DNA of 46,540 nt. It comes from Erysipelotrichia bacterium. Lineage in GTDB: Bacteria > Bacillota_I > Bacilli_A > Erysipelotrichales > Erysipelotrichaceae. Below the pieces are notes generated by a model, which worked only from the letters and a program-made list of their open reading frames with translations, searched no databases and had not been told where the DNA came from. Positions 13,527-37,002 of the stretch are shown piece after piece (positions within the stretch are counted from its first letter, which is position 1; every line of letters starts with the position of its first letter). Both the position numbers and the translations under genes were made by a program. Location: assembly GCA_018333955.1 (NCBI GenBank), contig JAGXSD010000035.1, forward strand, positions 1-46,540. The letters run 5' to 3'.

Positions 13527-14576
13527 TTACTTCTCAGAATCTTTGAGTATTTCAATGTTTGGATGGACAACTTGAATCCAAGTGTTTCCAGGTAAGAATG
13601 TGATTTCTCTTCCGACGGAATCAAAGTATTGAGTTTTGGAAGTAGCTGTTGCTTTTTTCCATGTTCCTTCTTCGTATTGTCCATTCATGAAGAATTCAGC
13701 TTTACCTTCTCCAACAAAATCGACCAAAACATATCGAACTCTTTCCACATCACGATGTGGAGCGTGTAGAGCGACAATATTAGTTACAGTGACCTGATTA
13801 TTGGTGTAGTCATCCATCATTGGCAATTCATTAATAAAACGTTTATATACTTCGAGAGTTATATCATAAATGTATGTTATCTGATTACTAGATGAGTAAT
13901 TAAATCTAATTTCACTCACTTTTCGATCATTGACATTGGTACTTGAATCAAACTTAAATCGTGGTTCATAATCTTTTAGAGGAATCTTAACTAATGCAGC
14001 TTCAGCATTAAAATAGGCATTATGTGGAGCACTTCTAGAGTTATCCCTTGAGTAAAATTCAGCATTGAGTCCTTTGTGACCATCAAAGCGTATTGGTAGG
14101 TTAATCGTTCTTAAAATGGATAAAGCATCCCCTTCACCGACTTCTGCTGACCCATAATGTGCAAATGGCAGTTTAAGTTCTTTTAATAACTCAGCAAATG
14201 GAACCCGTGCACTTCGTACTGGTCCTACCTTAGTTAGATGTGTTTCACTGAAAATGGCCATAAAACGTGAGATAGCCCAACCATCCACGGATATCTCATA
14301 AACAATGTCTGCTTCTGCTATGCCTGATTGAGGTCGTGCGGCTGCAGTGTTTTCAATCATGATTGCGAAAGCTTTATAGGATGTTTCTGCTTCAATTTCT
14401 CGACCATTGAATGGTTGTCTTAAAACAGGTTCTTCATCCACAGGATCAGTTGGTAAATCATTTGTAGGAGGATTGTTATCAGTAGGTTCTTTTGGTGTAT
14501 TCATTCTCACTAAAATCACGATCCCAAGTAATAAAGATAGCCCAAGTGCTGCATAAGTATAATAGATTTTTTTCAT
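13527..14576 (-). CDS. DUF3048 domain protein (YerB-like)
   Basis: This is an intact 349-aa protein of the DUF3048 family, which is common in Firmicutes and of unknown function. A membrane anchor (YYTYAALGLSLLLGIVILV, residues about 5-23) is followed by a Pro/Thr/Asp-rich linker (PTDNNPPTNDLPTDPVDE), so the domain should lie outside the membrane. Conserved parts include FAIMIENTAAARPQSGIAEADIVYE and GPVRSARVPF. ATG 14576 is preferred because GGGAGGGG lies 6 nt upstream; an ATG at 14600 overlaps the previous stop but has no SD. It is the last gene of the polysaccharide operon. Confidence 0.88.
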   Translation of the reverse strand: MKKIYYTYAALGLSLLLGIVILVRMNTPKEPTDNNPPTNDLPTDPVDEEPVLRQPFNGREIEAETSYKAFAIMIENTAAARPQSGIAEADIVYEISVDGWAISRFMAIFSETHLTKVGPVRSARVPFAELLKELKLPFAHYGSAEVGEGDALSILRTINLPIRFDGHKGLNAEFYSRDNSRSAPHNAYFNAEAALVKIPLKDYEPRFKFDSSTNVNDRKVSEIRFNYSSSNQITYIYDITLEVYKRFINELPMMDDYTNNQVTVTNIVALHAPHRDVERVRYVLVDFVGEGKAEFFMNGQYEEGTWKKATATSKTQYFDSVGREITFLPGNTWIQVVHPNIEILKDSEK

Positions 14577-14599
14577 GTTACCCCTCCCATGGATTGACA

Positions 14600-15223
14600 T
14601 TAAACTTCAATATTTGAAATAAGTAATCCAACCAATGGTTTATTGAGTTCTTTAATGAGTGAAGCATGTTTAGAAAGAACTGATTTAGATGGTCTTCTAT
14701 CTTCTTTCACATATAATATACCATCACAGAATTTGCCTACAATAAGTGCATCATAGCATTCACTTAGAGAAGGTGTTGCAAGGAAGACATAATCATAATT
14801 ATTTTTTAAGTTGTTGATGAGTACTTCAAGTTGCTTCTCATTGAGTAAATCAGTTGAGTTATCAAAGGTATCTTTATTTGTGATAACATCAAAATTCTCA
14901 CTCTGATGAATGAGTAATTGATTGAGTGTGGATTGATTGAATAAGTATTTCTCAATACCATTGAATACTGTTTCTTCATCAATTGTCATGTTCTCAAATT
15001 TCTGAAGTAGATTGATGTTGACAAACACTGTCTTCTTTCCAATAATAGAAAAGCTTTTTGCGACATCAAGAATGACTTTTGAGATGGATTGACTAGGTAT
15101 TGAGTTAATGAAATGCACAACTTTTACTTCTTCATTTTGAAGAAGTAGCGTTCTTACTCGTCTAATTTCTTCACTTCTATTGAGGTTTACATCCTTTTGA
15201 GTGATTTTATCCAGTAGTTTCAT
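14600..15223 (-). CDS. CpsD/CapB-like protein with degenerate ATP site (pseudokinase)
   Basis: This intact 207-aa gene sits directly after the CpsC-like gene, where bacterial tyrosine kinases (BY-kinases) of the CpsD/CapB/YwqD family normally lie. It keeps the family layout (SEEIRRVRTLLL start, KTVFVNINL, NYDYVFLATPS, a final VGLLISN strand). The expected Walker A GEGKS/T sequence is replaced by NSIPSQSISK, the Walker A' Asp is replaced (VNINL for the usual IDADLR) and the Walker B Asp is Ala (FLATPS). The C-terminal tyrosine cluster is absent; the protein stops at SNIEV. A catalytically inactive partner that still modulates chain length through CpsC is my inference. It overlaps cpsC by one base. 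Confidence 0.82.
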   Translation of the reverse strand: MKLLDKITQKDVNLNRSEEIRRVRTLLLQNEEVKVVHFINSIPSQSISKVILDVAKSFSIIGKKTVFVNINLLQKFENMTIDEETVFNGIEKYLFNQSTLNQLLIHQSENFDVITNKDTFDNSTDLLNEKQLEVLINNLKNNYDYVFLATPSLSECYDALIVGKFCDGILYVKEDRRPSKSVLSKHASLIKELNKPLVGLLISNIEV

Positions 15224-15921
15224 TAGCGTACCTCAAGTAATTTTCTAAGTTTTGATTTAGGTGTTTTTCCAGTAAACTTTCCTAACACTTTAGAATCAAA
15301 AAGACTTTCAAAATCATTGTCTGTAATGATATAAGGTGACATGAAGTAGACAGCAAAGACATAAAACACTGCGAACATACCAGATAGAATGATTCCTAGA
15401 ATAATGTTCATTAACCAGTTAACGTTATTCTCATTAATCTTTGGCACTAAGACTGGTTCACTGGTTTGAAATTCACGAATTTCAACGGATGGAAATGCCC
15501 CTTCAATAATTGGTTTAACAAGTTTAAAGATTTCAGTAGAAATCTGAGTAATAGTTTCACTGTTTGATCCTTCAACTTTGTAAGCTAATAGCCCTGAATC
15601 TGAATCATATTGTGATGTTAGCTTATAATTGGAATTTTCAATCTTAAGTGTTGTTAGTGCTGAGTTTAGTGAACTAACATGGGACAAAGTATTTACTATG
15701 AGTGTGATTCCTTGTTCGTTATTGAGTGATCCACTTAGAATAATTTGTGTTTCTACAGAATAGGAGTTGACTTCTCTATTTCGATAAAAAGAAATTCCTG
15801 AAAGAATTATTGAACTCAGCAATCCAAGAATTATAAGCATGGTAATTAATTTTAGATTACGGCGAAGAACATCAAGAAGCTCTAAAAGACTGATTTCTTC
15901 TTCATATTGTTGATTTTGCAT
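15223..15921 (-). CDS. CpsC/Wzz-like polysaccharide chain-length regulator
   Basis: This 232-aa membrane protein has two transmembrane helices, near residues 27-47 and 168-192, flanking an extracellular region. That is the Wzz/CpsC (CapA) layout, and the N-terminal EEEISLLELLDVLRRNLKLI is the typical entry to helix 1. The Pro-rich stretch before helix 2 (SEPVLVPKINENN) fits the family. The cytoplasmic tail (DNDFESLFDSKVLGKF) usually contacts and activates the tyrosine kinase. Here the partner is the degenerate CpsD at 14600-15223, whose start overlaps this stop. Confidence 0.85.
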   Translation of the reverse strand: MQNQQYEEEISLLELLDVLRRNLKLITMLIILGLLSSIILSGISFYRNREVNSYSVETQIILSGSLNNEQGITLIVNTLSHVSSLNSALTTLKIENSNYKLTSQYDSDSGLLAYKVEGSNSETITQISTEIFKLVKPIIEGAFPSVEIREFQTSEPVLVPKINENNVNWLMNIILGIILSGMFAVFYVFAVYFMSPYIITDNDFESLFDSKVLGKFTGKTPKSKLRKLLEVR

Positions 15922-15970: not shown

Positions 15971-16672
15971 TCAAGTAATCAAATCAGAATAATCATTAGA
16001 ACCCCAATTAATAAATGTTGGGACTAAATTGACAACAGTTAGTATAATCACTAGAACCGTCATCCATGTTGTAATTTTAAACTGCTTGGCTGATTCTTTT
16101 GCTCCTTGCTCCATCATTTCTTTGTTTGATATATATTGTTGTTCAGTCTGTTTTGAGAAGTCCTTCAGAACTTCTGTAAGCTTATGAGTGGACAAGATTG
16201 TTCCTGCCTGAGCAGGTTCACAGTGGTTTCGGGAAATTATCGGCATAATTGATCGATATGTCTTATTTTCAACTGTCTCACATATACCTCTTAAATTCCC
16301 AATTTCTTCACACTTGTGATACGCTGTGCATCTTGAATATTCATAAATTTCGTAGCTGTCATAATTTCCACTTTTGATCAACTTATCAAGACACGCATTC
16401 GAACAAACAGCTATTGATTTTGTTTCATCTCTTCCATTCCTGAGATAATACCAAAAGTACCCTTCTTCGATTTGCTCTCCACATATTTTGCATTCCCAAT
16501 TTGAAAAGTCAGGACGGTCAAATTCATCACTATCTTCATCAAGAATTTCTTCTGGTGAATGATATTTTTTTCTGTTTGGATCTAAAATCTCATATGCTGG
16601 TATCACAGGTTCAATCTTTGGAAGTGTGAATTTACCAAATTCCCCTAATAAGTTCTTGAATTTATCATCCAT
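15971..16672 (-). CDS. Hypothetical zinc-finger-like, tail-anchored membrane protein
   Basis: I do not recognise this 233-aa protein. It has an acidic N-terminus, then a Cys-rich segment (CKICG near residue 60, SNAC about 34 residues later, further Cys and His in CTAYHKCEE and CETVE) that looks like a metal-binding treble-clef or ribbon. A helical stretch follows, then one C-terminal transmembrane helix (TTWMTVLVIILTVVNLVPTFI, about 200-222). It lies 16 nt downstream of the 63-aa gene and 50 nt upstream of cpsC in the operon. An SD (AGGTGGGAG) precedes the ATG. There is no evidence for a role in sugar metabolism. Confidence 0.65.
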   Translation of the reverse strand: MDDKFKNLLGEFGKFTLPKIEPVIPAYEILDPNRKKYHSPEEILDEDSDEFDRPDFSNWECKICGEQIEEGYFWYYLRNGRDETKSIAVCSNACLDKLIKSGNYDSYEIYEYSRCTAYHKCEEIGNLRGICETVENKTYRSIMPIISRNHCEPAQAGTILSTHKLTEVLKDFSKQTEQQYISNKEMMEQGAKESAKQFKITTWMTVLVIILTVVNLVPTFINWGSNDYSDLIT

Positions 16673-17327: not shown

Positions 17328-18851
17328 TTAAGCAGCTCCTCTTCCAAACTTCTTTTTAATTGCTCCAACGATTACGTCAACATCTTCAATTTTCATAAAG
17401 TAGATAATCACAAAATATGAAACTGCTCCAACACTGATTGCCATTAGAAGCGAAAGGTTCTGAGATAAAGAAGCTGTTAAGTAAATAAAGGTCAGTTTAG
17501 CTAATCCGCCCATTAGAGAGGAAGCGAATAGGATTTTTAGGAATGAAATGCTGATTTGCTTCATGCCGAATGGTCCTATTTTTTTACGTAGACTGATGAA
17601 TAGGAGGAATGTAGTGAATGTAGCCGCGATAGAAGTAGCTAAAGCTAACCCTCCTATTCCAAGGTATCGTGACAATATTATATTAAGTATAATATTTAAT
17701 AGCATGCCTAAAGCTGCATTTAACATCGGGGTCTTAGTATTTTGCATCGAATAAAACCCTCTTGCTAAGACTTCTCTATATCCAAATCCCAACATCCCTA
17801 AAGCATAAAAAAACAAAGCCGTAGAGGTCATTTGAATTGCAATTTCATCGAAAGCTCCTCTACCAAAAAGCATTAAAACCACTTGATTACTGAAAATCAT
17901 AGTGCCTATTGTTATAGGTAAAACAAAAATTGTGATTATATTTATCGATTCCTTTAAAGATTTCTTTATACCTTCGTAATTCTTATTACTTGCGAAAGAT
18001 GATATTTGAGGATACATTACAGTGATTATTGAAGTGACAAATAAGCCTTGAATAAATAAATTTAGTCTATTTGCATAATTGAGTGATGATATACCACCAA
18101 TTGCAATTGATGATGCTAAAGTTCGATCCACAAGGATATTGATCTGATTTACGGAAGTTCCCATGATTACTGGTATAGCAATATAAATGGTTTTAATGAT
18201 CCTTGAATCCTTAAAAGCTAATAATGCCGTATATTTGAATTTAGCTTTCTTAATAAAAGGTAACATTAAAATAACTTGTGATGCAGTAGCAACAAGAGTC
18301 CCTATTGCAAGAATCAAATGATTACCTCTTGATGCGAGTATGATAGAGATGATAACTATACTGTTCAGAGGTATACCTACTAAAGCTGGTATAACATAAT
18401 TATTTTTGAGCTGAAGATATCCAGAAAAAATCGTTACCAAAGCCGTAAAATACATTCCCGCAAGGCTGATTCTAGTAAAAACAATAGATAATGTAAAGGT
18501 ATCGTTAGTAAAACCAGAAGCGAATAATTTTATAAGAGGCTCAGTAAATACCAAACCAAACACGAAAAATATTGAAACAAACACCATGATAATATTGATA
18601 AAATTGCTAGTAAATTTATCTCCCTCTTCAATGCCGAATTCATCACTAACTCTACTCTGCATCGGTATATAAGCTGTAACTATTCCAGTTCCTATAAGTC
18701 CAAATATAACACTAGGTATAGTAAGTGAAATCAAGTAGGCATCACTTATATTTGAAGCTCCATAAAAATATGATAATATTATATCTCTCCCGAATCCAAA
18801 TATTTTTGAGATTAGAGTGATTATCATGATTGTTAAAGCGGTCTTCTTCAT
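17328..18851 (-). CDS. MurJ/MviN-family lipid-linked oligosaccharide flippase (Wzx role)
   Basis: This 507-aa polytopic protein of the MOP superfamily has about 14 predicted helices. MurJ-type features are the N-terminal ISKIFGFGRDIILSYFYGAS, helix regions beginning DAYLISLTIP, and the later GFGYREVLARGFYSMQNTKTP with the Arg-Phe-Tyr run common in MurJ. The locus has no other Wzx-like flippase, so this is the likely exporter of the undecaprenyl-linked repeat unit. A general lipid II flippase role is possible but less likely from context. It starts 28 nt after the pseI stop. Confidence 0.88.
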   Translation of the reverse strand: MKKTALTIMIITLISKIFGFGRDIILSYFYGASNISDAYLISLTIPSVIFGLIGTGIVTAYIPMQSRVSDEFGIEEGDKFTSNFINIIMVFVSIFFVFGLVFTEPLIKLFASGFTNDTFTLSIVFTRISLAGMYFTALVTIFSGYLQLKNNYVIPALVGIPLNSIVIISIILASRGNHLILAIGTLVATASQVILMLPFIKKAKFKYTALLAFKDSRIIKTIYIAIPVIMGTSVNQINILVDRTLASSIAIGGISSLNYANRLNLFIQGLFVTSIITVMYPQISSFASNKNYEGIKKSLKESINIITIFVLPITIGTMIFSNQVVLMLFGRGAFDEIAIQMTSTALFFYALGMLGFGYREVLARGFYSMQNTKTPMLNAALGMLLNIILNIILSRYLGIGGLALATSIAATFTTFLLFISLRKKIGPFGMKQISISFLKILFASSLMGGLAKLTFIYLTASLSQNLSLLMAISVGAVSYFVIIYFMKIEDVDVIVGAIKKKFGRGAA

Positions 18852-18878
18852 AATTTCTATATACTTATAGGACTCAAA

Positions 18879-19913
18879 TCATCTAATGTGTTTCCACTTA
18901 AGAGGAGTCCCCCTTTCAATATCAAAATTTGATTTTTTACCAACAATATCATTATAATACTTTGGATGCAATCCATTCCCAGGTCTAATGGATCTCACAT
19001 TTTCATCGGTGAAATTTTCTCCAGCTTTGATATCTCTTACAACAAACAGTGATCTGCCAAGTAGCCTGCTGTTTTTCTTTTTCTCAGTCATACTATAATC
19101 GACATTTCCTATTGCTTTTTCAGCACTTCTAACCGCATCTACCATTTGTTTAAATTCATTAGGTTCTAAGGAGAAACTAGAATCTGGTCCTCCGATCGCT
19201 TTATCTAATATGAAGTGTTTCTCAATTACACGAGCACCTAACGCAATAGACACAACAGGAGCGGTTATACCTAATGTATGATCCGATAATCCTACTTCAA
19301 CACTAAACGTTTCTTTCATATTCGGTATTGTCTTTAAATTAGCATCTTCAATTTTTGCTGGATATGAGGATGTGCACTTTAGTAAAATAATTTGATCATT
19401 CCCCATACGTTTACAAGCATTAACAGCTTCTTCAATATCGCTTAATGAAGCAACCCCTGTAGACATAATCATTGGTTTTCCTTTTGATGCGATGTATTCA
19501 ATTAATGGAATATCCATAATTTCAAATGATGCGACTTTATAAACAGGTACATCTAATTCCTCAAGAAAATCTACTGCTGTTTTATCAAAAGGAGTGGAAA
19601 AGAAAATAAGACCTATGCTATTGGCATACTCCATCAATTCTTTTTGCCATTCCCATGGAGTGTATGCTTCACTATATAAGTCGTAAAGAGTACGTCCATC
19701 CCAGATAGTCCCACTATCAAGCTTAAAATACTCATTATCACAATCAATAGTAAGCGTATCAGCTGTGTATGTTTGTATCTTAATTGCATCAGCCCCTGCT
19801 TCTTTGGCTGCTTTTATTGTATCTTTCGCAATATTGATATCATGTCCGTGATTTGCTGATAATTCCGCAATAATAAATATCTTTTCATTAATGTCAAATT
19901 TATCAATTAACAT
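18879..19913 (-). CDS. pseI: Pseudaminic acid synthase
   Basis: This 344-aa NeuB-family synthase condenses phosphoenolpyruvate with 2,4-diacetamido-2,4,6-trideoxy-L-altrose to give pseudaminic acid. An N-terminal TIM barrel holds IIAELSANHGH, DAIKIQTYTADT, FFSTPFD, CTSSYPA and VGLSDHTLG. PseI-type IGGPDSSFSLEP contains the metal/PEP region. A C-terminal antifreeze-like SAF domain begins near residue 285 (GRSLFVVRDIKAGE). Start ATG 19913 has a strong AAGGAGG SD, lying inside the end of the upstream pseG-pseH gene. PseI rather than NeuB or LegI is chosen from motifs and neighbours. Confidence 0.9.
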   Translation of the reverse strand: MLIDKFDINEKIFIIAELSANHGHDINIAKDTIKAAKEAGADAIKIQTYTADTLTIDCDNEYFKLDSGTIWDGRTLYDLYSEAYTPWEWQKELMEYANSIGLIFFSTPFDKTAVDFLEELDVPVYKVASFEIMDIPLIEYIASKGKPMIMSTGVASLSDIEEAVNACKRMGNDQIILLKCTSSYPAKIEDANLKTIPNMKETFSVEVGLSDHTLGITAPVVSIALGARVIEKHFILDKAIGGPDSSFSLEPNEFKQMVDAVRSAEKAIGNVDYSMTEKKKNSRLLGRSLFVVRDIKAGENFTDENVRSIRPGNGLHPKYYNDIVGKKSNFDIERGTPLKWKHIR

Positions 19914-21369
19914 AAAAAACCTCCTTCTTTAGGATAAGCTTCATCATACTATCTTCATCCTTGTGTCTCTTAAAGTTAAGTCCTTCAAATATTTTCTTTG
20001 AAGCGATATTATCTTCAGAAACAAAAGCAATAATATCTTTTACAGATTGTTCTTCGTCAAATATTTTTTTAATGCTTTTATTTAATATCTCCTTTGAAAG
20101 ACCCTTTCCTTTCAATTTTTCTGATAAGCTTATACTGACCGTTGCACTGTTTTCAATTATTTTGTATCGAATCTGACCAAGAAAAGATTCATTTTTATCG
20201 GTTACTACATAAAACACTGTTCTTTCATCTTCAAGAACTGAATTAAACCACTTAACATGATCAACCCATTTAATTTTATCTTTATTAATAGAGTATAGTC
20301 TCACGTAATCTTGGTTCGATAAATCAAACACATCCTTGATGTCTTCTGCTTTGACTTTCCTCAAATTTATTTTATGCTCTTTATCTGTATCTTTTAATAA
20401 ATAATCTACTATTCTCCTAGAGCCATATCCGTCTACAAGATCTGTATATTTCCGGTTATAGTTTTTTCTATATTCGACGTCATTATATATTTCTAACGCA
20501 TTATTCAAGCTGCTTAAAAAACCTGAACCATTATATTTTAATACAATCTGCTCAGGATTGTATTCTAACAATGATTTTATATTATTTTCTTGGTTTTCTA
20601 TTACTTTAATTGGAATAAAAGGTGTCTGTGTAGCTAACAACTCATAAATGGTTTGACCTGCTGCAGTAATAGCTAAGTCAGAACTTATCATTAACTCCAT
20701 CATTTGAGTTGCATCTAGATTGTTATGGAAAGTAATATTATTCGGTTTAGAAATCTGCGACTTGATTTTCTCCATATCTTCAGAACCAGTCACAATATAG
20801 AATTCTATATCTAAAATGTTTCTACAAATATTATCAATGATCAAAGGAGTTAATCCTCTGATATCGGTTCCGCCCATCATAATCAGAACTCTTTTAACCT
20901 CATTTGAGATACCTTCTCTTTTCACACCCCTAAACTGCTGTCTTAAAATCACATATTCTGGTCCAGATAATAGAATACTATTTGAAGAATGTGAGTAATC
21001 GATATGACTAGAATCTAAAGATGGGTTTACAATAATTCCTTCAGGATATGCTATCCTACCTATATCATCAATGAATAGTGCTCGTTTTGAGTTCTTTGAA
21101 ATAATTTCATAGATTTCTTTAGTGGCTTTATAGGAGTCAACAATTACATAATCATTTGCTGATAAGGTATTCATTAAATATTCTTTATCTAACCAATTTT
21201 CATTAACGATGTTTATACCCTTTAGAAAGCCTAAATCTGCAATATCTCCATAGACTATGAAATCGACCAAAACACCTCTATTAATAATCTCATTATACAA
21301 AGAGGAACACCTTGAAATATGACCTAAGCCTATATCTTTTCCACCTTCTGTAAATATTTTAACTTTCAT
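19903..21369 (-). CDS. pseG: PseG UDP-sugar hydrolase fused to PseH-like N-acetyltransferase
   Basis: This 488-aa bifunctional protein starts at ATG 21369; a TTG at 21378 is also open but overlaps the SD. Residues 1 to about 315 are the PseG/SpsG hydrolase that removes UDP from UDP-2,4-diacetamido-2,4,6-trideoxy-L-altrose. GLGHISRC places the catalytic His at residue 17, as in Campylobacter PseG, and LIMMGGTDIRG is the nucleotide-binding loop. Residues about 325-485 are a GNAT domain (INLRKVKAEDIKDVFDLSN, KLKGKGLSKEIL as the acetyl-CoA loop, SVKDIIAFVSEDNIASKKIFE), fitting the PseH 4-N-acetyltransferase. Note the fused order is hydrolase then acetyltransferase, whereas the reactions run PseH then PseG. 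Confidence 0.9.
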   Translation of the reverse strand: MKVKIFTEGGKDIGLGHISRCSSLYNEIINRGVLVDFIVYGDIADLGFLKGINIVNENWLDKEYLMNTLSANDYVIVDSYKATKEIYEIISKNSKRALFIDDIGRIAYPEGIIVNPSLDSSHIDYSHSSNSILLSGPEYVILRQQFRGVKREGISNEVKRVLIMMGGTDIRGLTPLIIDNICRNILDIEFYIVTGSEDMEKIKSQISKPNNITFHNNLDATQMMELMISSDLAITAAGQTIYELLATQTPFIPIKVIENQENNIKSLLEYNPEQIVLKYNGSGFLSSLNNALEIYNDVEYRKNYNRKYTDLVDGYGSRRIVDYLLKDTDKEHKINLRKVKAEDIKDVFDLSNQDYVRLYSINKDKIKWVDHVKWFNSVLEDERTVFYVVTDKNESFLGQIRYKIIENSATVSISLSEKLKGKGLSKEILNKSIKKIFDEEQSVKDIIAFVSEDNIASKKIFEGLNFKRHKDEDSMMKLILKKEVFYVN

Positions 21370-21380
21370 TTTTATCAATC

Positions 21381-22118
21381 CTAATTTTTTAATTTTTTCT
21401 GTTCTATGTGAGCATTAATATCAAAAAGTCCCTGCTTTGTTTCAAATAGCTTAACAATATCACTTAAATAGAAATCATGCTCTCCATTATATAAATGCTT
21501 GTAAATTTCAGATATAAGCTTAAAGTCTTCATCTGTATCAAGCGTCCAACGATGTTTGGAATAATCGATATCATTCTTATAGTAGTAAACACCGATAGAA
21601 TTTTCATAAATGAAAGGCGTCACATGCTCTCTTTGATATGTCTCTTTAGCATTAATAAAAGCATTTTCTAATACTTTAAACGAAAAAACTTCTGTATCTA
21701 ATCCTCTTGGGTATGTCCTTTTAGATAGATCTGATCCTGCATTGGAGACAATATCATAATCATTATTACAATAACACTGAATAACTTCATCCAATACTTT
21801 GGGATCTATCAAAGGGCAATCTGATGTTATGCGAACAACAACAGCTAAGCCATTCTCTTTAGCCGCATAATAATATCTTGATAAGACATCATCTTCACTA
21901 CCTCTAAAAACTTTCACGCCACATCTTAACGCTTCAGTTTCAATTACATCGTCCCTGTCGTGTGTTGTTGTTGCAATAATTATCTCATGAATCATTTTTG
22001 ATTGTCTAACTCTTTCTATCACATGCTCTAAGACAGTTTTTCCTTCTAGGTCTTTCATGACCTTTCCAGATAACCTTGTAGAACCCATTCTTGCTTGAAT
22101 AATTGCTCCTATTTTCAT
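21381..22118 (-). CDS. pseF: Pseudaminic acid cytidylyltransferase (PseF/SpsF-like)
   Basis: This 245-aa nucleotidyltransferase would activate pseudaminic acid with CTP to CMP-Pse. The N-terminal GAIIQARMGSTRLSGKVM is the CTP-binding loop of the CMP-sugar synthetase family (SpsF/KdsB-like), followed by RVRQS, FRGSEDDVLSRYY, RITSDCPLIDP (metal Asp) and RWTLDTDEDF. It lies between pseC and pseG-pseH with spacings of 8 and 11 nt. SpsF-like proteins act as PseF in Firmicutes pathways by gene context; the substrate is inferred. Confidence 0.86.
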   Translation of the reverse strand: MKIGAIIQARMGSTRLSGKVMKDLEGKTVLEHVIERVRQSKMIHEIIIATTTHDRDDVIETEALRCGVKVFRGSEDDVLSRYYYAAKENGLAVVVRITSDCPLIDPKVLDEVIQCYCNNDYDIVSNAGSDLSKRTYPRGLDTEVFSFKVLENAFINAKETYQREHVTPFIYENSIGVYYYKNDIDYSKHRWTLDTDEDFKLISEIYKHLYNGEHDFYLSDIVKLFETKQGLFDINAHIEQKKLKN

Positions 22119-22126
22119 GTACTTAC

Positions 22127-23314
22127 CTACTTTCGGTAATAATCTATTACTTTATTTACAGCTTCGATTACACTATAGACATCCTCATCTGATAATGAAT
22201 AATAAAGCGGAATAGTTATAATCTCTTCATATAATGCTTCTGCGTTTGGACATAATCCTTTTTTATATCCTAGTTCTTGATAATAAGGATGGAAATATAC
22301 CGGTAGATAATGTACTTGCAAACCGACATTTTCTGCATTCAAAGCTTTATAGATTTCATCCCTGCCAACTTTTAACTTATCAGATTTCAATCTAATAATA
22401 TATAAATGTCTAGTGGTATCAGATTCCTTAATCTCTTTTTGAATTGTTATCTCTGGAATTTTAGAAAAGGCTTCGTTATACTTACTTACGATTTCTTTTC
22501 TTCTATTTGAAAACTGATTCAACTTTCTTAATTGACTAGTTCCTAGTGCTGCTTGAAAATCAGTCATTCTAAAGTTATAACCTAACTCGATTTGCTCGTT
22601 GTAGCCGTTAAATGGTGTGTGAGTTAGTAATTTTTCGTCTCTTGTAATTCCGTGAGAACGGAATAAAAGCATTTTATTGTAATATTCCTCGTTATTTGTT
22701 AAAACTGCGCCGCCTTCACCACAGGTAATTGTTTTTACCGGGTGGAAGCTAAACGTTGTGAAATCTGCATGTGCACCAACAGGTATTCCATTATACTTGG
22801 TTCCTATAGAGTGGGCTGCATCTTCTATGAAAACTAAATTATGTTTTTTGCAGATTTCTTTAATTTCATTGATTTGTACAGCCTGTCCAGTAAAATCAAC
22901 TGCAATAATTGCCTTAGTCTTTGCTGTAATTTTCTCTTCAATTTTTTCAGGATCTATGTTCCATGTTTCTGGATCAATATCTGCAAATACAGGAGTTCCC
23001 CCACAATACAATACACAATTTGCGGATGCAGCAAATGTAATTGGGGTAGTTATTACCTCGTCTCCTTTAGTAATTCCAGCTGCATAACATGAAGCATGAA
23101 GTGCAGTAGTTCCATTTGAAATAGCAACTGCATATTTTGCACCTGTAAGTTCGCAGAGTTTTTTTTCAAACTCATCTACTTTTGGACCAGTTGTAAGATA
23201 CGGAGATTGTAATACCTCATTAACAGATTTGATATCTTGATCGTCAATGTATTGCTTTCCATAAGGTATAAAATCGCTTCTTGTTGGTTTTCCTCCATTA
23301 ATTGCTAGTAACAT
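22127..23314 (-). CDS. pseC: UDP-4-keto-sugar 4-aminotransferase
   Basis: This 395-aa DegT/DnrJ/EryC1 aminotransferase converts UDP-2-acetamido-2,6-dideoxy-beta-L-arabino-hexos-4-ulose to the 4-amino-altrose derivative. Key parts are SNGTTALHASCYAAG (cofactor phosphate), DFTGQA, EDAAHSIG, and FHPVKTITCGEGGA with the PLP Lys in the PseC/SpsC-type context HPVK. The C-terminus contains QVHYLPVYFHPYY. The start overlaps the end of the polymerase gene by 17 nt and has SD AAGGGGGT. Its substrate would be supplied by CapE (27594-28613). Confidence 0.9.
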   Translation of the reverse strand: MLLAINGGKPTRSDFIPYGKQYIDDQDIKSVNEVLQSPYLTTGPKVDEFEKKLCELTGAKYAVAISNGTTALHASCYAAGITKGDEVITTPITFAASANCVLYCGGTPVFADIDPETWNIDPEKIEEKITAKTKAIIAVDFTGQAVQINEIKEICKKHNLVFIEDAAHSIGTKYNGIPVGAHADFTTFSFHPVKTITCGEGGAVLTNNEEYYNKMLLFRSHGITRDEKLLTHTPFNGYNEQIELGYNFRMTDFQAALGTSQLRKLNQFSNRRKEIVSKYNEAFSKIPEITIQKEIKESDTTRHLYIIRLKSDKLKVGRDEIYKALNAENVGLQVHYLPVYFHPYYQELGYKKGLCPNAEALYEEIITIPLYYSLSDEDVYSVIEAVNKVIDYYRK

Positions 23315-24470
23315 TATTGTTTACCCCCTTAAGAGTTTTCTTTGTTAGTTTCGGTTGAATGTTAAAACTTTTGAATATGAAATAATATAATAACGGATCA
23401 AATGGTCCGTGAAAAGCCACAATATCTGTAACTCCTCGTATCAAAAGAATCACTGATAGTATGAAAAACAAAAAATATTTATGAATGAAAAACTTAGAAA
23501 TTGACCTAAAACTGAAAATAAATATCATTATAAACCCTAGTAACCCGTGATAAGCATGCAGTCTAAGATATGAATTATGTAGATTATATCCATAAACAGA
23601 AAACAGCAAATTTTGATTAATGTTCACACCAAAAAACAATGCATAAAAGGAAATTTTACATTGATTTAAATACTCTACTACTATACTTCTTCTATGACTA
23701 TCAGTTATTCCTAGTCTGAATAATCTAGCTAAAGCTGGTTCAATTAACTCCTCATAAAAGAATACCGAAATTACAGAATAAACTATTAGAATCAAGAACG
23801 ATAAATATATAATTTTCAAGTTTTTCTTTTCACTTTCAAACTGAATGTATAGAATTATTAATATTAACATAAGAAGTGACGTGAAAATTCCACTCCTACC
23901 TATAGTCCAAATTGAAAATAATAATACAGTTAACGCAGGATATATTTTTATTTGTTTCTTATTTTCAAACATAGACACATATAATAATACCGACTGAATC
24001 AACAAAGTAACCGGTATGTTATTTCTACTAAAACCAATAAACACATTATCGGGATGTATCCCAGCAAGCATATTGGCGCCAAAATACAGAACATAAAACA
24101 TAAAAAAGAACTTATTTATCGAGAACTTTGTTCCGTACCTAAATAGTAATAATGCTATACCGAAATACTGTACTATGATCAAATAATCCTGTACCCTGTA
24201 GTTACTAGTATAAACAGAAGATACTAGACCAAATAAGTAAAACGCAAAGAAGAATACAATTATTTTTGTTTTACTATGAAATTTTTGTGTAGTCACAACA
24301 TAAGCAAAACTACCTATACCGATTAAACTCATTAACACGTATGTTGTTATGCCGTATATGCTAGATGTACCTATTATCATTCTAATAAAGTAAAGAAAGT
24401 AAAAAAGTTGAATAAATAGGCTAGCAACATGTGATTTTGTAATCTTATTTTTTTTAATTTTTAGTTTCAT
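23298..24470 (-). CDS. O-antigen/capsule polymerase (Wzy-like)
   Basis: This 390-aa polytopic membrane protein has about 10-12 hydrophobic helices and a larger extracytoplasmic loop around residues 235-290. Short motifs such as GFSRNNIP, FSIWTIGRSGIFTSLLM and YNLHNSYLRLHAYHGLLG match Wzy/O-antigen ligase-type proteins, in which a conserved His in an HNxxL loop is typical. Wzy proteins are poorly conserved, so the call rests on topology, the loop motif and its place in a Wzx/Wzy-type locus. Codons are notably AT-rich, as usual for Wzy. Confidence 0.85.
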   Translation of the reverse strand: MKLKIKKNKITKSHVASLFIQLFYFLYFIRMIIGTSSIYGITTYVLMSLIGIGSFAYVVTTQKFHSKTKIIVFFFAFYLFGLVSSVYTSNYRVQDYLIIVQYFGIALLLFRYGTKFSINKFFFMFYVLYFGANMLAGIHPDNVFIGFSRNNIPVTLLIQSVLLYVSMFENKKQIKIYPALTVLLFSIWTIGRSGIFTSLLMLILIILYIQFESEKKNLKIIYLSFLILIVYSVISVFFYEELIEPALARLFRLGITDSHRRSIVVEYLNQCKISFYALFFGVNINQNLLFSVYGYNLHNSYLRLHAYHGLLGFIMIFIFSFRSISKFFIHKYFLFFILSVILLIRGVTDIVAFHGPFDPLLYYFIFKSFNIQPKLTKKTLKGVNNNVTSN

Positions 24471-24497
24471 CTTACTCTCCTAGCCTAAATAATTTGA

Positions 24498-25295
24498 TTA
24501 TCTTTTAAGTACAACTTCAAGTTTCTCTTTGGGATAAGCATCAAGTAAACTGTCTTCAGTAAGATTCATTATTTTAATCCCTTTAGAATTTGCATATTTC
24601 TGTAAAGCATAATGATGAAATGATACAGTTGAATATTCTTTCAATTCATCACCTAGACTTCTGTTTCTTAAAGATACATTTTTCATGTCATAAAAATGTA
24701 GTACCTTTGGTGTTGCAAATGAATTGAAGTCACTACCTAATAAGTAAATTTCTGAAAACCCCATGTATATTGCTGTTTGAATGCAACCAAGCAACACATT
24801 AAATGGGGCAGTAATGCTCTTATCCATGTCAACTTCAATGAAGTCTTTAAATTGATATAAGTTACAATGCTGAAAATGAATATTACTATTTGCTTCCATT
24901 TTCTCTTTTATGTTTTTATACGCTTTAGTGCGCATGAAAAATATTGTTTCTGGAAACAAGTTTATCAGCCTTTTTGTTTCTTCAATATGTGTTGTATGAA
25001 AAATTTGATCGTATAAACAGTAATAAGAAGGAGTTATCCCGTCTAAAAAATCACTATTATATAAAAAATTTACCCCGAATAAAATCTCATCCTTTAATAA
25101 TTCGGGACTTACTTCTCTTAACGATGGACCAGTTCCCAAAATAAAACATCTTTTCCCTTGATGAATATTATGGAACTTTTTATTCTCTTTAACGATTTCT
25201 CTATACTTCGAAAAAATAAATTGAATTTTGGAAATCCTATTATATGTTCTATATATGGAGTTATCCAACTTTTCTTTTAGCAGAATTTTACTCAT
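24498..25295 (-). CDS. DUF115/sialyltransferase-fold protein, candidate pseudaminyl transferase
   Basis: This 265-aa protein has a Rossmann start GKRCFILGTGPSLREV (about residues 46-61), then NFLYNSDF, a TAPFNVLLGCIQTAIYMGFSEIYLLG segment (about 165-190) followed by SDFNSF, and a late FHHYALQKYANSKGIKI. This order resembles both the DUF115 proteins (Maf-type flagellin glycosyltransferases, MptE-like) and the GT42 sialyltransferases of Campylobacter, whose catalytic His precedes a similar helix. Because the cluster makes CMP-Pse and contains no other obvious nonulosonate transferase, I propose it adds Pse to the repeat unit. Function is inferred; the fold resemblance is by eye. Confidence 0.65.
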   Translation of the reverse strand: MSKILLKEKLDNSIYRTYNRISKIQFIFSKYREIVKENKKFHNIHQGKRCFILGTGPSLREVSPELLKDEILFGVNFLYNSDFLDGITPSYYCLYDQIFHTTHIEETKRLINLFPETIFFMRTKAYKNIKEKMEANSNIHFQHCNLYQFKDFIEVDMDKSITAPFNVLLGCIQTAIYMGFSEIYLLGSDFNSFATPKVLHFYDMKNVSLRNRSLGDELKEYSTVSFHHYALQKYANSKGIKIMNLTEDSLLDAYPKEKLEVVLKR

Positions 25296-25320
25296 CTAAT
25301 CTTCCCTTCGCTAACAAATG

Positions 25321-26481
25321 CTACTCATTTTTATTCACTCTACTTGTTTTAGTATCTAGATTCCCCCAAACAACTCTATTTACATAATCTGTGTAAGACA
25401 AGATAATTCTCAACACCTTATCAGATACATTTGGCATACTATAATCTTCAACCAATCTTAAAGTATCTTTTTCTTGTGTCTCCAGCACTTCTAATCCTTG
25501 AAGAATTCTTTCCTTCTTAAGTCCAACCATCATCACTGACGCTTCTTCCATTGCCTCAGGTCTTTCATATGCTTGTCTAATGTTTAGTGCTCTAAATCCA
25601 AGAATAGATGATTCTTCACTGATTGTGCCGCTATCACTTAAAACAGCCTTAGCATACTTCTGAAGTTTAACATAATCGTTAAACCCAAGCGGCTTCATGG
25701 TCTTAACTAATTGGTTGAATTCAATTCCTTTTGCTTCAATCATTTTTCTAGTTCTTGGATGTGTGCTAACAATCAATGGCATCTGATATTTATCTGCTAT
25801 CACATTTAAGCTTTCGACTAAATCCATGAAATTTTGTTCAGAGCTGATATTCTCCTCTCTATGTGCAGAAACAACAAAGTATTTTTCTATATCTAGCCCT
25901 AATCTTTCAAGTACATCCGATTTTTCAATGTCTTCTTTTTTAGAATTAAGAACTTCAAACATTGGGCTGCCAGTCTTAATTACTCTGTCTGCAGGAAGAC
26001 CTTCTCTTAAAAGGTACTCTCTAGCAATATCGCTATAAGTTAGGTTAATATCTGCTGTATGGTCTACAATCTTTCTGTTAGTTTCTTCAGGCACTCTCTG
26101 ATCAAAGCATCTATTTCCTGCTTCCATATGGAAAATAGGGATATGTCTTCTCTTTGCAGCTATCGCACACAAGCAACTATTTGTATCACCAAGCACAAGA
26201 AATGCATCAGGCTTTACTTCTTCAAGTATTGGATCAATTTTAACCAGAATATTTCCTATTGTTTCAACAGCAGTTCCCGTTGCAGCATTTAGAAAATAAT
26301 CAGGCTTCTTTAAATTGAAGTCATTAAAGAACACCTCATTCAGTTCATAGTCATAGTTCTGTCCTGTATGAACAAGAACATGTTCAATCGCTTTTGATTC
26401 ATCTAGTTTATTTATAACAGCTGACAGTCTTATTATTTCTGGTCTTGTACCAACGACTGTCATAACTTTTAGTTTTTTCAT
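25321..26481 (-). CDS. capG: UDP-GlcNAc 2-epimerase-family enzyme for UDP-L-FucNAc (CapG/FnlC-like)
   Basis: This 386-aa WecB-fold 2-epimerase has VGTRPEIIRLSAVI, HTGQNYDYELNEVFF, HMEAGNRCFDQRVPEE, STHPRTRKMIEA and SDSGTISEES, all family signatures. Next to capE and capF, the substrate is predicted to be UDP-2-acetamido-2,6-dideoxy-L-talose (UDP-L-PneNAc), epimerised at C2 to UDP-L-FucNAc, as in S. aureus CapG and E. coli FnlC. The order capE-capF-capG with gaps of 0-3 nt supports this over a plain ManNAc-forming WecB. Confidence 0.9.
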   Translation of the reverse strand: MKKLKVMTVVGTRPEIIRLSAVINKLDESKAIEHVLVHTGQNYDYELNEVFFNDFNLKKPDYFLNAATGTAVETIGNILVKIDPILEEVKPDAFLVLGDTNSCLCAIAAKRRHIPIFHMEAGNRCFDQRVPEETNRKIVDHTADINLTYSDIAREYLLREGLPADRVIKTGSPMFEVLNSKKEDIEKSDVLERLGLDIEKYFVVSAHREENISSEQNFMDLVESLNVIADKYQMPLIVSTHPRTRKMIEAKGIEFNQLVKTMKPLGFNDYVKLQKYAKAVLSDSGTISEESSILGFRALNIRQAYERPEAMEEASVMMVGLKKERILQGLEVLETQEKDTLRLVEDYSMPNVSDKVLRIILSYTDYVNRVVWGNLDTKTSRVNKNE

Positions 26482-26484
26482 CAG

Positions 26485-27594
26485 TTATACCTCCAAATAA
26501 TAAGTATCTGCGTTCTTTGGATTATAAGTTTCATTAGCCCACATTATTGTTATCAAATCCACGTTTCCAACATTTTCAATATTATGAGCGTATCCTGTTG
26601 GTATATCGACAACTTCCATCTTTTCACCACTTACCAAATACTCTATGACTTTATCTGAATCTATTTTTCTAAACCGAATAACCCCTTTACCGCTGACGAC
26701 TAGAAACTTCTCATTCTTCGTGTGGTGCCAATGATTTCCCTTTGTAATTCCAGGTTTAGATATATTAACTGACACTTGACCACGATCAGGCGTTTTGATG
26801 AACTCGGTGAAAGACCCTCTTTGATCCACATTCATCTTTAAGGAATAAGTGAATTTGTCTTCTGGCAAGTAGCTTAAATATGTACTGTACAGTTTTTTAG
26901 TAAATGCATCAGCCATGTTTGGAACTGATCTATCTTCTCTACTATTCTTGAACGAGTAAATCAAATCTACTATTTCACCAAGAGTAATTGTATGTACCAC
27001 AGGCACTTCACAAAATGGGCCTATTTTATTTTCTTTTCCCTCTAGCGCATTAATGAGTTCGTTAACCACATCATCTATATAAACAAGGTTCATTATTACA
27101 CTTGGATCATTCACTTGAATAGGCAAAGAATGAGCAACATTATAACAAAATGTAGCAACCACACTATTATAATTAGGCCTACACCACTTCCCGAAAACAT
27201 TAGGGAATCTATAAACAAGAACTTTAGCCCTAGTTTCTTTGCCGTAAGTAAATAAGAGATCTTCCCCTGCTTTCTTACTTTCACCATAAGGATTATCTAA
27301 CTCAGATTGAATGGAAGACGAAATCATCACCGGGCAGGTGTTGTTGTGTTTTTTAAGAGAATCTAATAGATTGGAGGTAAAACCAAAGTTACCTTCCATG
27401 AACTCAGATTGTTCTTTTGGACGGTTAACTCCAGCAAGATGAAATACAAAATCAGCTTCTTTACAATACTGATCAAGTAATGAAGGATCTGTATCTCTGT
27501 CATACTCATAAATATCATCATACTTTCGATTTCTCAACTTAGATATTAAGTTTTTACTTATGAAGCCCTTTGCCCCTGTGACTAAAATCTTCAT
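26485..27594 (-). CDS. capF: Bifunctional SDR-cupin 4-ketoreductase (CapF/FnlB-like)
   Basis: This 369-aa two-domain enzyme of UDP-L-FucNAc synthesis has an N-terminal SDR domain with VTGAKGFIS (cofactor loop, residues 5-13) and NPYGESKK (Tyr103, Lys107). A C-terminal cupin (from about 245) carries HWHHTKNEKF and PTGYAHNIENVG metal-binding His residues. In S. aureus CapF the cupin performs C3 epimerisation and the SDR domain reduces the 4-keto group to give UDP-L-PneNAc. The start touches the capE stop at 27594. Confidence 0.92.
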   Translation of the reverse strand: MKILVTGAKGFISKNLISKLRNRKYDDIYEYDRDTDPSLLDQYCKEADFVFHLAGVNRPKEQSEFMEGNFGFTSNLLDSLKKHNNTCPVMISSSIQSELDNPYGESKKAGEDLLFTYGKETRAKVLVYRFPNVFGKWCRPNYNSVVATFCYNVAHSLPIQVNDPSVIMNLVYIDDVVNELINALEGKENKIGPFCEVPVVHTITLGEIVDLIYSFKNSREDRSVPNMADAFTKKLYSTYLSYLPEDKFTYSLKMNVDQRGSFTEFIKTPDRGQVSVNISKPGITKGNHWHHTKNEKFLVVSGKGVIRFRKIDSDKVIEYLVSGEKMEVVDIPTGYAHNIENVGNVDLITIMWANETYNPKNADTYYLEV

Positions 27595-28613
27595 TATCTA
27601 TCCCAACTTTCCAATTGTTCTCTTACATAATCAAGCTGTAATAGCTTTTCTTTAATCTGCTCTATGTTGAGTCGCTCTGTATTATGAGAGTTGTACTCAT
27701 CTTCTGATGAAAGCTTTTGATCTCCTTCAACGAAATATTTGTCGTAGTTTAAATCTCTCTTATCTGCAGGTACTCTATAGAATCCACCCATATCTTTTGC
27801 TACAACATGCTCTTCTTTTGTAAGGAGCGTTTCATAAAGCTTTTCTCCATGGCGTGTACCGATTACTTTGATTTCATTGTCAGCATTAAATAGTTCTTTA
27901 ACTGCTTGAGCTAAGTCTCCGATAGTTGATGCAGGTGACTTCTGAACCATAATGTCTCCAGCTTCAGCATTCTGAAATGCAAATACAACAAGCTCTACAG
28001 CTTCTTCTAGGCTCATTAAAAACCTTGTCATATTCGGATCAGTTACTGTCAGTGGTTGTCCATTCTTAATCTGATCAATAAACAACGGAATTACTGACCC
28101 TCTTGAAGCCATAACATTACCATATCTTGTACCACAAATAAGTGTTCTTTCAGAATCAACAGTCTTTGCTTTAGCTACAAATACCTTCTCCATCATTGCT
28201 TTTGAAATTCCCATTGCATTGATCGGATAGGCTGCCTTATCTGTAGAAAGACATATAACCTTTTTAACTCCCATTTCAATAGCACCAGAAAGCACATTGT
28301 CTGTTCCTAATACATTCGTCTTTACTGCCTCAAGAGGGAAGAACTCACAAGATGGCACCTGCTTAAGAGCAGCTGCATGAAAGATATAATCCACTCCATG
28401 CATAGCATTTTTAACACTTGCAAGGTCTCTAACATCTCCTATATAAAATTTTAATTTGTCATTTTTATAAAGTTTTCTCATATCATCTTGTTTCTTTTCG
28501 TCACGAGAAAAAATACGAATTTCTTTAATATCTGTATTTAAGAATCTTTTCATTACTGCATTTCCAAAAGATCCTGTTCCACCTGTGATTAGTAAAGTCT
28601 TTCCTTTAAACAT
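27594..28613 (-). CDS. capE: UDP-GlcNAc 4,6-dehydratase/5-epimerase (CapE/FnlA-like), probable dual supply
   Basis: This 339-aa extended SDR starts LLITGGTGSFGNAVMKRFL and has IRIFSRDEKKQDDMR and HAAALKQVPSCEF. In STDKAAYPINAMGISK the usual catalytic Tyr is Met (MxxxK), a feature of CapE, PseB and PglF-like dehydratases. Overall it is very close to S. aureus CapE by recall. The product is UDP-2-acetamido-2,6-dideoxy-beta-L-arabino-hexos-4-ulose. That is the substrate of CapF and, after PseB in other species, also of PseC. As no separate PseB exists here, it probably feeds both pathways. It overlaps the upstream glycosyltransferase by 8 nt. Confidence 0.92.
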   Translation of the reverse strand: MFKGKTLLITGGTGSFGNAVMKRFLNTDIKEIRIFSRDEKKQDDMRKLYKNDKLKFYIGDVRDLASVKNAMHGVDYIFHAAALKQVPSCEFFPLEAVKTNVLGTDNVLSGAIEMGVKKVICLSTDKAAYPINAMGISKAMMEKVFVAKAKTVDSERTLICGTRYGNVMASRGSVIPLFIDQIKNGQPLTVTDPNMTRFLMSLEEAVELVVFAFQNAEAGDIMVQKSPASTIGDLAQAVKELFNADNEIKVIGTRHGEKLYETLLTKEEHVVAKDMGGFYRVPADKRDLNYDKYFVEGDQKLSSEDEYNSHNTERLNIEQIKEKLLQLDYVREQLESWDR

Positions 28614-29859
28614 TTAACTTTTCCTCCACTCCATACTGTTTATTAAAATATATATCCATCTTATCTAGCAGAATATTTTTATTAAAATGACTATTATAAT
28701 ACTTCCTAGCATTATCGCCTAGTATAATAAGTTCTTCTCTGGACTTGCTTGATAGCTTTATAATATTATCAGCTAGTTCTTCTGCATTACCCGGATTGCC
28801 GCATAAACCCGAATTTGATTCTTTAATAATTTTTGCAGTCTCGCCAGCTGCAGATGCGATATTGGGGATGCCGCAAGCCATATAGGATTGAAGCTTAGCA
28901 GGTATAGTCATTGCAAATAACGGGCTATCCGTCAAACTAAGAAAAGCAGCATCACTTGCAGCCATGAACTCTGGTATTCTGGTTGCCGGTTGCTTGGAGA
29001 TGAAATTAAACATATCATCCAATCCCTTAACATTGACTATGTTTACAAACTCATTCTTATATCTGCCATCTCCAACGATATTAAATCTTATCTGTTTTTC
29101 AGATCTAGTCTTTATGATTTCTGCTGCTTTTGGCAGAATATCTAGCCCTTGAGCTGCTCCAATATTCCCTGCAAAAATGATATTGAACGCATCATCTTTT
29201 GGTATCTCTGGGATACTCATTTTCTCAATCGGAATATAAAAATCTTCAGCATATTGCGGCCAGTACTCGATTTTATCTAGTGGAACTCCACGATCATGAA
29301 TAGACTTAACAAAACTCTCTGACGTGGTAAATATCCTAGTACAGCCTCTATATATGTAGTCCACCATATTACCAATGGCACCAATAATCTTCTTGTTCTT
29401 AATTCCAGTTATTATTTCAACATTTTCAGGCCATAGATCTTGAACATATAAGTAACAAGGAATCTTCCTCTTCTTTGCATACCAAACTCCAGGAAGTGCC
29501 TGAGTCATTGGAGAAACTTCAAATATAAATACATAATCAGCCTTAATCTTAGTAAACATCTTCCAGAAGAACCCCGACACCACAAATGACAAATAATTAA
29601 GAGCAAGCATGATTGAATTGTTTCCCCTCGGAACCAAAGGAATTCTTATGATATCCATACCGTTATAGGTTTCTTTCCTCTTCTTGAATAGCCCATATCC
29701 ATCATAATATTTGCCTTGAGGGTAGTTTGGAATTCCTGTAACTACCGTTACTTTGTATCCTCTTTTCACCCACTCAGTACATATGTCATTGATTCGGAAC
29801 TGTTCAGGGTAGAAATATTGCGCGATTACTAATATGTGTTTTTTCAAGCTCGTATCCAC
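28606..29859 (-). CDS. GT4-family glycosyltransferase (CapL/WbuB-like, L-FucNAc transferase)
   Basis: This 417-aa glycosyltransferase of the GT-B fold has an N-terminal domain QYFYPEQFRINDICTEW followed by VTGIPNYPQGKYYDGYG, both typical of WbuB/CapL. The C-terminal domain has FAGNIGAAQGLDILP, FNIVGDGR and a donor-binding stretch SLTDSPLFAMTIPAKLQSYM. WbuB and CapL add L-FucNAc to the first lipid-linked sugar, and capE/F/G lie directly downstream, so this role is likely. It is cytoplasmic or peripheral to the membrane. The start follows an SD overlapping the end of the preceding intergenic gap (9 nt after capN). Confidence 0.88.
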   Translation of the reverse strand: MDTSLKKHILVIAQYFYPEQFRINDICTEWVKRGYKVTVVTGIPNYPQGKYYDGYGLFKKRKETYNGMDIIRIPLVPRGNNSIMLALNYLSFVVSGFFWKMFTKIKADYVFIFEVSPMTQALPGVWYAKKRKIPCYLYVQDLWPENVEIITGIKNKKIIGAIGNMVDYIYRGCTRIFTTSESFVKSIHDRGVPLDKIEYWPQYAEDFYIPIEKMSIPEIPKDDAFNIIFAGNIGAAQGLDILPKAAEIIKTRSEKQIRFNIVGDGRYKNEFVNIVNVKGLDDMFNFISKQPATRIPEFMAASDAAFLSLTDSPLFAMTIPAKLQSYMACGIPNIASAAGETAKIIKESNSGLCGNPGNAEELADNIIKLSSKSREELIILGDNARKYYNSHFNKNILLDKMDIYFNKQYGVEEKLNV

Positions 29860-29868
29860 CCTTCCTAA

Positions 29869-30738
29869 TTATTTCTCCGTCAACTCAATAGATTCTCTAA
29901 AATCTCTTATTCGGTAATTCGCCTTATCATAGTCACTCATGGACTTCTCATAAACCAAATTGCCGAATACCTTATTAACCAATCCCACTCTGCCAAACAT
30001 CAATCTAATAAGCCAGTTCATCCACCCAATCATCCAAATCTTCTTCCCATGAACCTCAGCAATCGTCCTAACAAGTTCACTGGTCTTCACATACTCCTTG
30101 TTCTGTGGAAAGTAAATCCCTGTTTCTTCATGGTCAATCATAACCTTAATGAACTCACAAAGATTATCTATATGAAGCATGCTGCGCTCATTATCGATAT
30201 CAGGAAACACAGGTATCTTCTGTGCTAAATTAGATAATTTAGGATAGTTCCCTTTAGAACCTTTCCCATAAATCATAGGTGGTCTAAGAACCACAATCTT
30301 AAAATCATCAGTCTCTAAATGCTTGATACCTTCCTCTGCCTGCAGCTTACTGTTCCCATAGAAGTTACTTGGCGTTGGAACTGTATTTCTATCAATAACT
30401 CGTTTGCTACTGCTGCTGTCACCGTAGACAATGATGCTGCTCATAAAAATGAACTGCTTTACACCTTCTGCCTTAGCCTTCTCAGCAGCTTCAATCGTAA
30501 GATCTCTATTCACTTTATAGTAGAGGTCTTCCATCTTTGGATCAGATGAAACATGAGCAATCCCAGCGACATGAAACACAACATCATACTGAGAGAAGTC
30601 TTTCTCTTTCCATGACCCATCTTTCATATCCACCGTATCTACTTTATATTGATTATGTTCTCTCATGAGCCAATTCTCTAGAGATGTACCTATGTAACTG
30701 TTCTTACCAGTGATTAGAACATTTTTTAGATTTTTCAT
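29869..30738 (-). CDS. capN: NAD-dependent SDR 4-ketoreductase (CapN-like)
   Basis: This 289-aa extended SDR has LITGKNSYIGTSL (cofactor loop), FHVAGIAHVSS, QFIFMSSIIVYG, NFYGNSKLQ (YxxxK) and VVLRPPMIYGKG. The last part, VNKVFGNLVYEKSM, matches the CapN C-terminal region as I recall it (FRKLFGNLIYSNTL). In S. aureus, CapN reduces the CapD product (UDP-4-keto-6-deoxy-GlcNAc) to UDP-D-FucNAc. That function fits here since a membrane CapD-type dehydratase is encoded upstream. An alternative is a UDP-D-QuiNAc-forming reductase, as stereochemistry cannot be read from sequence. Confidence 0.83.
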   Translation of the reverse strand: MKNLKNVLITGKNSYIGTSLENWLMREHNQYKVDTVDMKDGSWKEKDFSQYDVVFHVAGIAHVSSDPKMEDLYYKVNRDLTIEAAEKAKAEGVKQFIFMSSIIVYGDSSSSKRVIDRNTVPTPSNFYGNSKLQAEEGIKHLETDDFKIVVLRPPMIYGKGSKGNYPKLSNLAQKIPVFPDIDNERSMLHIDNLCEFIKVMIDHEETGIYFPQNKEYVKTSELVRTIAEVHGKKIWMIGWMNWLIRLMFGRVGLVNKVFGNLVYEKSMSDYDKANYRIRDFRESIELTEK

Positions 30739-30793
30739 TTTGTCACCTCAATCAAGTGGGCTGTATTTAATATGCTGCTGATATCTATAAGCC

Positions 30794-34734: not shown

Positions 34735-34884
34735 TTGTACACTTATGCTCCCTTTCAATATCGTGTTAAGGTAAGAAATGACTAGTAATCGATTAAATGA
34801 CATATTGTTATGAAATATTACCTATTATTGATTATTTTATCACACATTCATTAAAAGTTAGAATTTCATGTTAATTCACATATC

Positions 34885-34916: not shown

Positions 34917-34957
34917 TTGATTGTTTTTTTGAAACTCCTTGGAAATAGTTGCTCTTG

Positions 34958-35938: not shown

Positions 35939-35944
35939 CATAGC

Positions 35945-36967: not shown

Positions 36968-36971
36968 AGAA

Positions 36972-36998: not shown

Positions 36999-37002
36999 GA
37001 TT

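Follow-up and report, generated by a model that had tools for sequence, protein, structure and literature searches.

What is a BY-kinase gene for if its product appears to have lost the means to bind ATP? The question is raised by a reading frame on the minus strand (14600..15223) of the window, the whole stretch of 46,540 nucleotides from an Erysipelotrichia bacterium that was analyzed here. The frame is open over 207 amino acids and begins with ATG. Its start overlaps the stop codon of the preceding cpsC gene (TAATG), and GAGGT lies upstream as a ribosome site. The first-pass annotation had described the gene as intact, of proper length, and coupled to cpsC, and these features bear it out on each point. 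A promoter scan performed no better than shuffled sequences, and an Rfam search gave no match.

To which family does the product belong? Against TIGR01007 it scores 75.3 bits (E 4.5e-21), which does not reach the curated cut-off of 108.05. The closest solved sequences are Staphylococcus aureus CapA/CapB chimeras, with E values of about 1e-12 to 1e-11, among them the CapA1B2 chimera 2ved (E 3.7e-12). An AlphaFold2 (AF2) model of moderate confidence (pLDDT 67, pTM 0.73), computed from three sequences only (the window protein and two relatives from another genus, g8, described below), is closest to the BY-kinases VpsO, CapA2B2, CapAB, Wzc, and Etk, with VIA Z scores of 18.5-20.4 over about 190-202 residues. 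An identity as MinD or ParA was considered and rejected. These ATPases are distant fold relatives, much weaker in sequence, where the MinD profile gives 19.8 bits versus 75 for eps_fam, and clearly behind in fold, with Z about 14 versus 19-20 for BY-kinases. Judged by sequence, the gene encodes a homologue of the BY-kinase (CpsD/CapB) superfamily, and in the model the BY-kinase fold is kept.

The ATP site is another matter. When the protein is aligned by profile with 125 canonical relatives, nine changes stand out (numbered by profile column): S44N, E49Q, G50S, K51I, D73N, D75N, R77L, D152A, and P155S. The Walker A motif has degenerated to S41-IPSQSISK-49 (15077..15103, minus strand), in which a Gly of the P-loop has become Ser and the catalytic Lys has become Ile (Ile47 of the window protein, column K51I), while the residue that follows remains Ser. 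Walker A' reads N69-I-N71-L-L73 (15005..15019, minus strand) in place of D-x-D-L-R, so that both Asp residues are replaced by Asn and the Arg by Leu. Walker B, VFLATPS at residues 146-152 (14768..14788, minus strand), has Ala149 for its Asp. Among the conserved motif columns, the Pro of "TP" is the sole survivor. No second P-loop of the form [AG]x4GK[ST] is present anywhere in the protein, and an alternative P-loop was rejected on that ground. The C-terminal Tyr cluster is absent as well; the last Tyr is Y171 of 207, and the protein terminates at the final strand. Could a tail be concealed in another frame? This too was rejected, because the next gene probably starts only about 20 nt beyond the stop codon. 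That gene, directly downstream, encodes a DUF3048 (YerB-type) protein (13527..14600, minus strand; PF11258/PF17479), whose likely real start is the ATG at 14576 behind GGGAGGGG. The annotation's statements that the residues of Walker A, A', and B have all been replaced and that the Tyr cluster is missing thus hold, and the intact alternative P-loop that it had named as grounds for refutation is not there. Such a protein would be expected neither to bind ATP nor to act as a kinase.

Is it then simply a decaying cpsD gene, a young pseudogene that is open by chance and has no function? The long branch of the window protein in the tree, the lack of an orthologue in other genomes of the genus, and the broken genes with IS21 remnants at 1-12.7 kb would all fit such a history. 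The pattern of the losses argues otherwise, as they fall mainly on the ATP site and leave the fold in place. Among 22 alignment columns, each at least 80% conserved in the 125 canonical relatives, the window pseudokinase has retained 9 of the 12 outside the ATP-site motifs and 1 of the 10 within them (Fisher p 0.0037); canonical proteins retain on average 97% of the motif columns and 89% of the others. Decay without direction would have struck the fold as well, and the loss, as read from these columns, is selective. Also retained is E18-x2-R21-x2-R24 (15152..15172, minus strand; alignment columns 21/24/27), the BY-kinase octamer-interface motif, described for CapB (PMC3795738). In simulations of neutral change, a frame stays free of stop codons with a probability of 0.015 once 0.2 substitutions per site have accumulated and of 0.0005 once 0.5 have, yet sequence identity between the window protein and its canonical relatives is only about 25%. 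The start codon, the ribosome site, and the coupling to cpsC are all preserved, and the related g8 pseudokinases evolve under constraint. On balance, decay is a fairly unlikely account of this gene.

How common are such proteins? Among 151 non-redundant BY-kinase domains of relatives with the core covered (one motif-less fragment was left out of this count), the catalytic Lys is lost in only five: the window protein, its relatives in two species of genus g8, a fused protein in genome G025, and a 206-amino-acid protein in G075. The g8 pseudokinases have P-loops reading EEGVST or NEGVTT, in which the Walker A Gly, Ser, and Thr are kept; the first Asp of Walker A' has become Ser, the Walker B Asp is retained, and there is no Tyr tail. 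Their genes overlap those of CpsC-like proteins, and each pair follows immediately on a CapD-like gene within a cps locus. The pseudokinases of the two species are 64% identical, and are by these estimates under purifying selection because dN is 0.245 versus a dS of 1.12 (LWL85; NG86 was saturated). The accompanying CpsC proteins have similar values (dN 0.238, dS 1.08). The G025 protein, from a third genus, is a fused, degenerate PCP-kinase without the catalytic Lys.

Trees (FastTree, and IQ-TREE on 51 sequences) place the window pseudokinase with Erysipelotrichaceae BY-kinase homologues and group it with the g8 and G025 proteins, with a FastTree local support of 0.92 and a UFBoot value of 94, or 74 without the motif columns. 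These lineages sit on long branches, and attraction between them is possible. Searches for further members came back empty. A single-protein search of genome contigs gave no match, no orthologue was found in other genomes of the genus, and a profile of the four degenerate proteins, run across the order (316 genomes) and the class (395), recovered no further member; the next matches, at no more than about 121 bits, were canonical BY-kinases where the sequence was fetched. A scan of viral contigs gave only weak, distant matches. The collections searched contain no close orthologue of the window gene, and the evidence that selection maintains it is accordingly indirect.

Several other arrangements were seen among the relatives. 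The G075 protein (L064:1305-1925) is an independent BY-kinase homologue with Thr for the P-loop Lys and no Tyr tail, and it groups away from the window protein. Genome G012 (L054, L057, L149) carries a canonical BY-kinase/CpsC/CpsB set and a pseudokinase/CpsC pair about 18 kb apart. Eight Erysipelotrichaceae loci (L101, L109, L110, L117, L120, L131, L132, and L139) encode fused PCP-BY-kinases, often as tandem pairs, with intact Walker motifs and a tail that lacks Tyr and in several cases is acidic; the adjoining copies tend to have a Tyr-rich tail, and a division of labor between a phosphorylated and a non-phosphorylated partner is possible. In another tandem of fused PCP-kinases (L059:874-3743, genome G055), the first copy has Glu for an A' Asp together with a long YGRYG tail, and the second has intact motifs and no tail.

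Might the protein still bind or hydrolyze nucleotide in a non-canonical way, as a switch of the ParA/MinD kind for which tail phosphorylation is impossible? The model predicts that the fold persists around the nucleotide site, the Ser that follows the lost Lys is still there, as is the TP of Walker B, and the g8 relatives keep more of the site, namely the Walker B Asp and the Gly, Ser, and Thr of Walker A. Such a switch would have to work in the window protein without the Lys, both Asp residues and the Arg of A', the P-loop Gly, and the Walker B Asp, all of which are gone, and with no alternative P-loop to take their place. We consider it unlikely.

Where the gene is found offers further clues. 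Its upstream neighbor (15223..15921, minus strand) encodes a CpsC/Wzz-like PCP of 232 amino acids with two TM helices (21-47 and 167-196), a cytoplasmic C-terminal tail ending in ...DNDFESLFDSKVLGKFTGKTPKSKLRKLLEVR, and no kinase domain. Its matches to PF02706 (E 4.5e-4; 20.9 bits, under the cut-off of 25.5) and TIGR01006 (E 4.2e-4) are both under the cut-off, and its AF2 model, which is of low confidence (pLDDT 62, pTM 0.42), finds its best matches in KpsE and Wzc (Z 10-12). Just upstream of cpsC lies a gene for a 233-amino-acid protein with one C-terminal TM and no family above cut-off (15971..16672, minus strand). Beyond it, family scans outline a cps locus with a surface-polysaccharide gene set of the Wzx/Wzy type (17328..38397, minus strand), which includes a MurJ-family flippase, pseudaminic-acid genes, WecB/FnlA/CapF-type genes, a polymerase-like membrane protein, a sugar-phosphate transferase, a CapD-like dehydratase, two NusG/LoaP-type antiterminators, an LCP ligase, and an acyltransferase (35945-36967, plus strand). 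The flippase (17328-18851) is of the MurJ family and not a typical Wzx. The two NusG-like paralogues lie at 32309-32824 and 34958-35476, and the first exceeds the LoaP antiterminator cut-off. At the other end of the window, positions 1-12700 hold broken or truncated genes, including a glutamate dehydrogenase in two reading frames, a sugar transferase in two frames, a fragment of a UDP-sugar dehydrogenase, and remnants of IS21 istA/istB.

Does the pair serve the capsule at all? A 656-bp gap separates it from the rest of the locus, at whose far end it lies beside the DUF3048 gene, and it might belong to another envelope process, for example one that involves the DUF3048 protein. In G002, a genome of the same genus, a canonical BY-kinase/CpsC pair stands instead at the start of the syntenic locus, in the order LCP, acyltransferase, BY-kinase, CpsC, CapD-like, NusG-like; where G002 has that pair, a NusG-like gene occupies the window, whose own divergent pair is at the opposite end. 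Descent from the G002 pair was rejected, given a tree distance of 4.3 and the different position in the locus. A role outside the capsule is nonetheless very improbable: the pair adjoins a full Wzx/Wzy-type set that otherwise has no PCP in the window, and in g8 the cps cluster itself contains the corresponding pair, next in line after the CapD-like gene.

What does the rest of the genome supply? It is 99.3% complete, and a search with TIGR01007 gave three matches across it, none above cut-off; the best two of the three are the pseudokinase and, at 51 bits, a frame of 263 amino acids interpreted as a MinD/ParA-type ATPase. The CpsB_CapC phosphatase (PF19567) is likewise absent from this genome, which has two low-molecular-weight phosphatases. 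Canonical BY-kinases and CpsB tend to occur together: of 60 relatives, 28 have both, 25 have neither, and 3 and 4 have a single one (Fisher 1.7e-9). That the pseudokinase joins or regulates an active BY-kinase encoded elsewhere, an arrangement that the canonical set and the pseudokinase/CpsC pair of G012 would allow, is therefore most improbable here, as neither CpsB nor a BY-kinase above the family cut-off turns up in the genome of the window.

Proteins of this description have been studied before in other bacteria. EcpK of Myxococcus xanthus and HfsB are published BY pseudokinases whose partners are PCP-2 proteins without a kinase domain (PMC12004946). EcpK binds EpsV, is required for exopolysaccharide, and has been proposed to act as a scaffold through cycles of binding alone (PMC12004946). 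Like the window protein, it is a stand-alone protein with the BYK fold that has no Walker A, A', or B motif and no Tyr tail, and its PCP has no kinase domain. It differs in coming from a Gram-negative bacterium and in that ecpK is not adjacent to epsV, while the window gene is translationally coupled to cpsC. Several BYK elements are also missing from EcpK, which carries a basic helix at its C-terminus; the alignment of the window protein spans almost the entire BYK fold, and nothing follows its last strand. In the same source, HfsB and HfsA of Caulobacter crescentus are described in like terms, as a stand-alone BY pseudokinase and its PCP-2 partner, with HfsB stabilizing its PCP; theirs is a holdfast system, again in a Gram-negative (PMC12004946). 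The nearest Gram-positive models are CpsC/CpsD of Streptococcus pneumoniae and CapA/CapB of S. aureus, which share with the window pair the two-gene PCP-2b organization, the BYK fold, the E-x2-R-x2-R helix, and the cytoplasmic PCP tail. CpsD and CapB are, however, active kinases whose Walker motifs and Tyr clusters are intact, and a CpsB/CapC phosphatase is present. S. aureus CapB1 was once suspected of being a pseudokinase; its motifs are intact, and it is active when fused to CapA1 (PMC3795738, PMC6441080).

The reading that we regard as probable is that the window protein is a BY pseudokinase, most likely a phosphorylation-independent scaffold for the co-encoded CpsC. A CpsD-type protein would have lost ATP binding, kinase activity, and the phosphorylatable tail, while retaining the BY-kinase fold and the helix motif for ring assembly. 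It would sit on the cytoplasmic C-terminal tail of the CpsC-like PCP, in place of an active CpsD, and hold or position the PCP ring through binding alone, so that polymerization and export of the capsule chain could be supported without a phosphorylation cycle. The annotation had already suggested a structural pseudokinase, and that reading is now well supported by the kept fold and oligomer motif, the selective loss, the coupling to cpsC, the purifying selection on the g8 relatives, and a genome with neither a canonical BY-kinase nor CpsB. Its further step, that Wzz is regulated without phosphorylation, is one that we too infer; the binding to CpsC, the formation of a ring, the role in polymerization, and the effect on chain length are all presumed in it. 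Weighing against the scaffold are the lack of a close orthologue in the collections searched, a partner that scores below the Wzz cut-off, AF2 models built on only three sequences, and the decaying genes at 1-12.7 kb. A broader proposal, which we put forward tentatively and hold to be somewhat doubtful, is that the lineage dropped the phosphotyrosine circuit (active CpsD and CpsB) for a purely structural ring of CpsC and pseudokinase. This would make it a phosphorylation-independent PCP-2b, within a small clade (window, g8, and the fused G025 protein) that shows stages of active-site loss.

What would this mean for the family? The pseudokinase/PCP mechanism is already known in Gram-negatives from EcpK and HfsB (PMC12004946). 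The literature surveyed contained no convincing Gram-positive BY pseudokinase; what appears to be new is a clear case of the CpsC/CpsD type in the Bacillota, with the whole BY-kinase/CpsB circuit apparently absent from the genome. In S. pneumoniae, Wzd and Wze are located at the septum and bring in the LCP ligase Wzg, and reports on how CpsD/Wze phosphorylation relates to capsule levels conflict, leaving its role disputed (PMC9216600). Whether a capsule tyrosine kinase acts through a phosphorylation cycle or as a structural, positional scaffold is thus a matter of dispute. A natural CpsC/CpsD-type pair predicted to be incapable of phosphorylation, in a genome where neither CpsB nor another BY-kinase above cut-off is found, would separate the two roles, and the subfamily of BY pseudokinases with their PCPs, for which the case has so far been made in Gram-negatives, would extend to the Bacillota.
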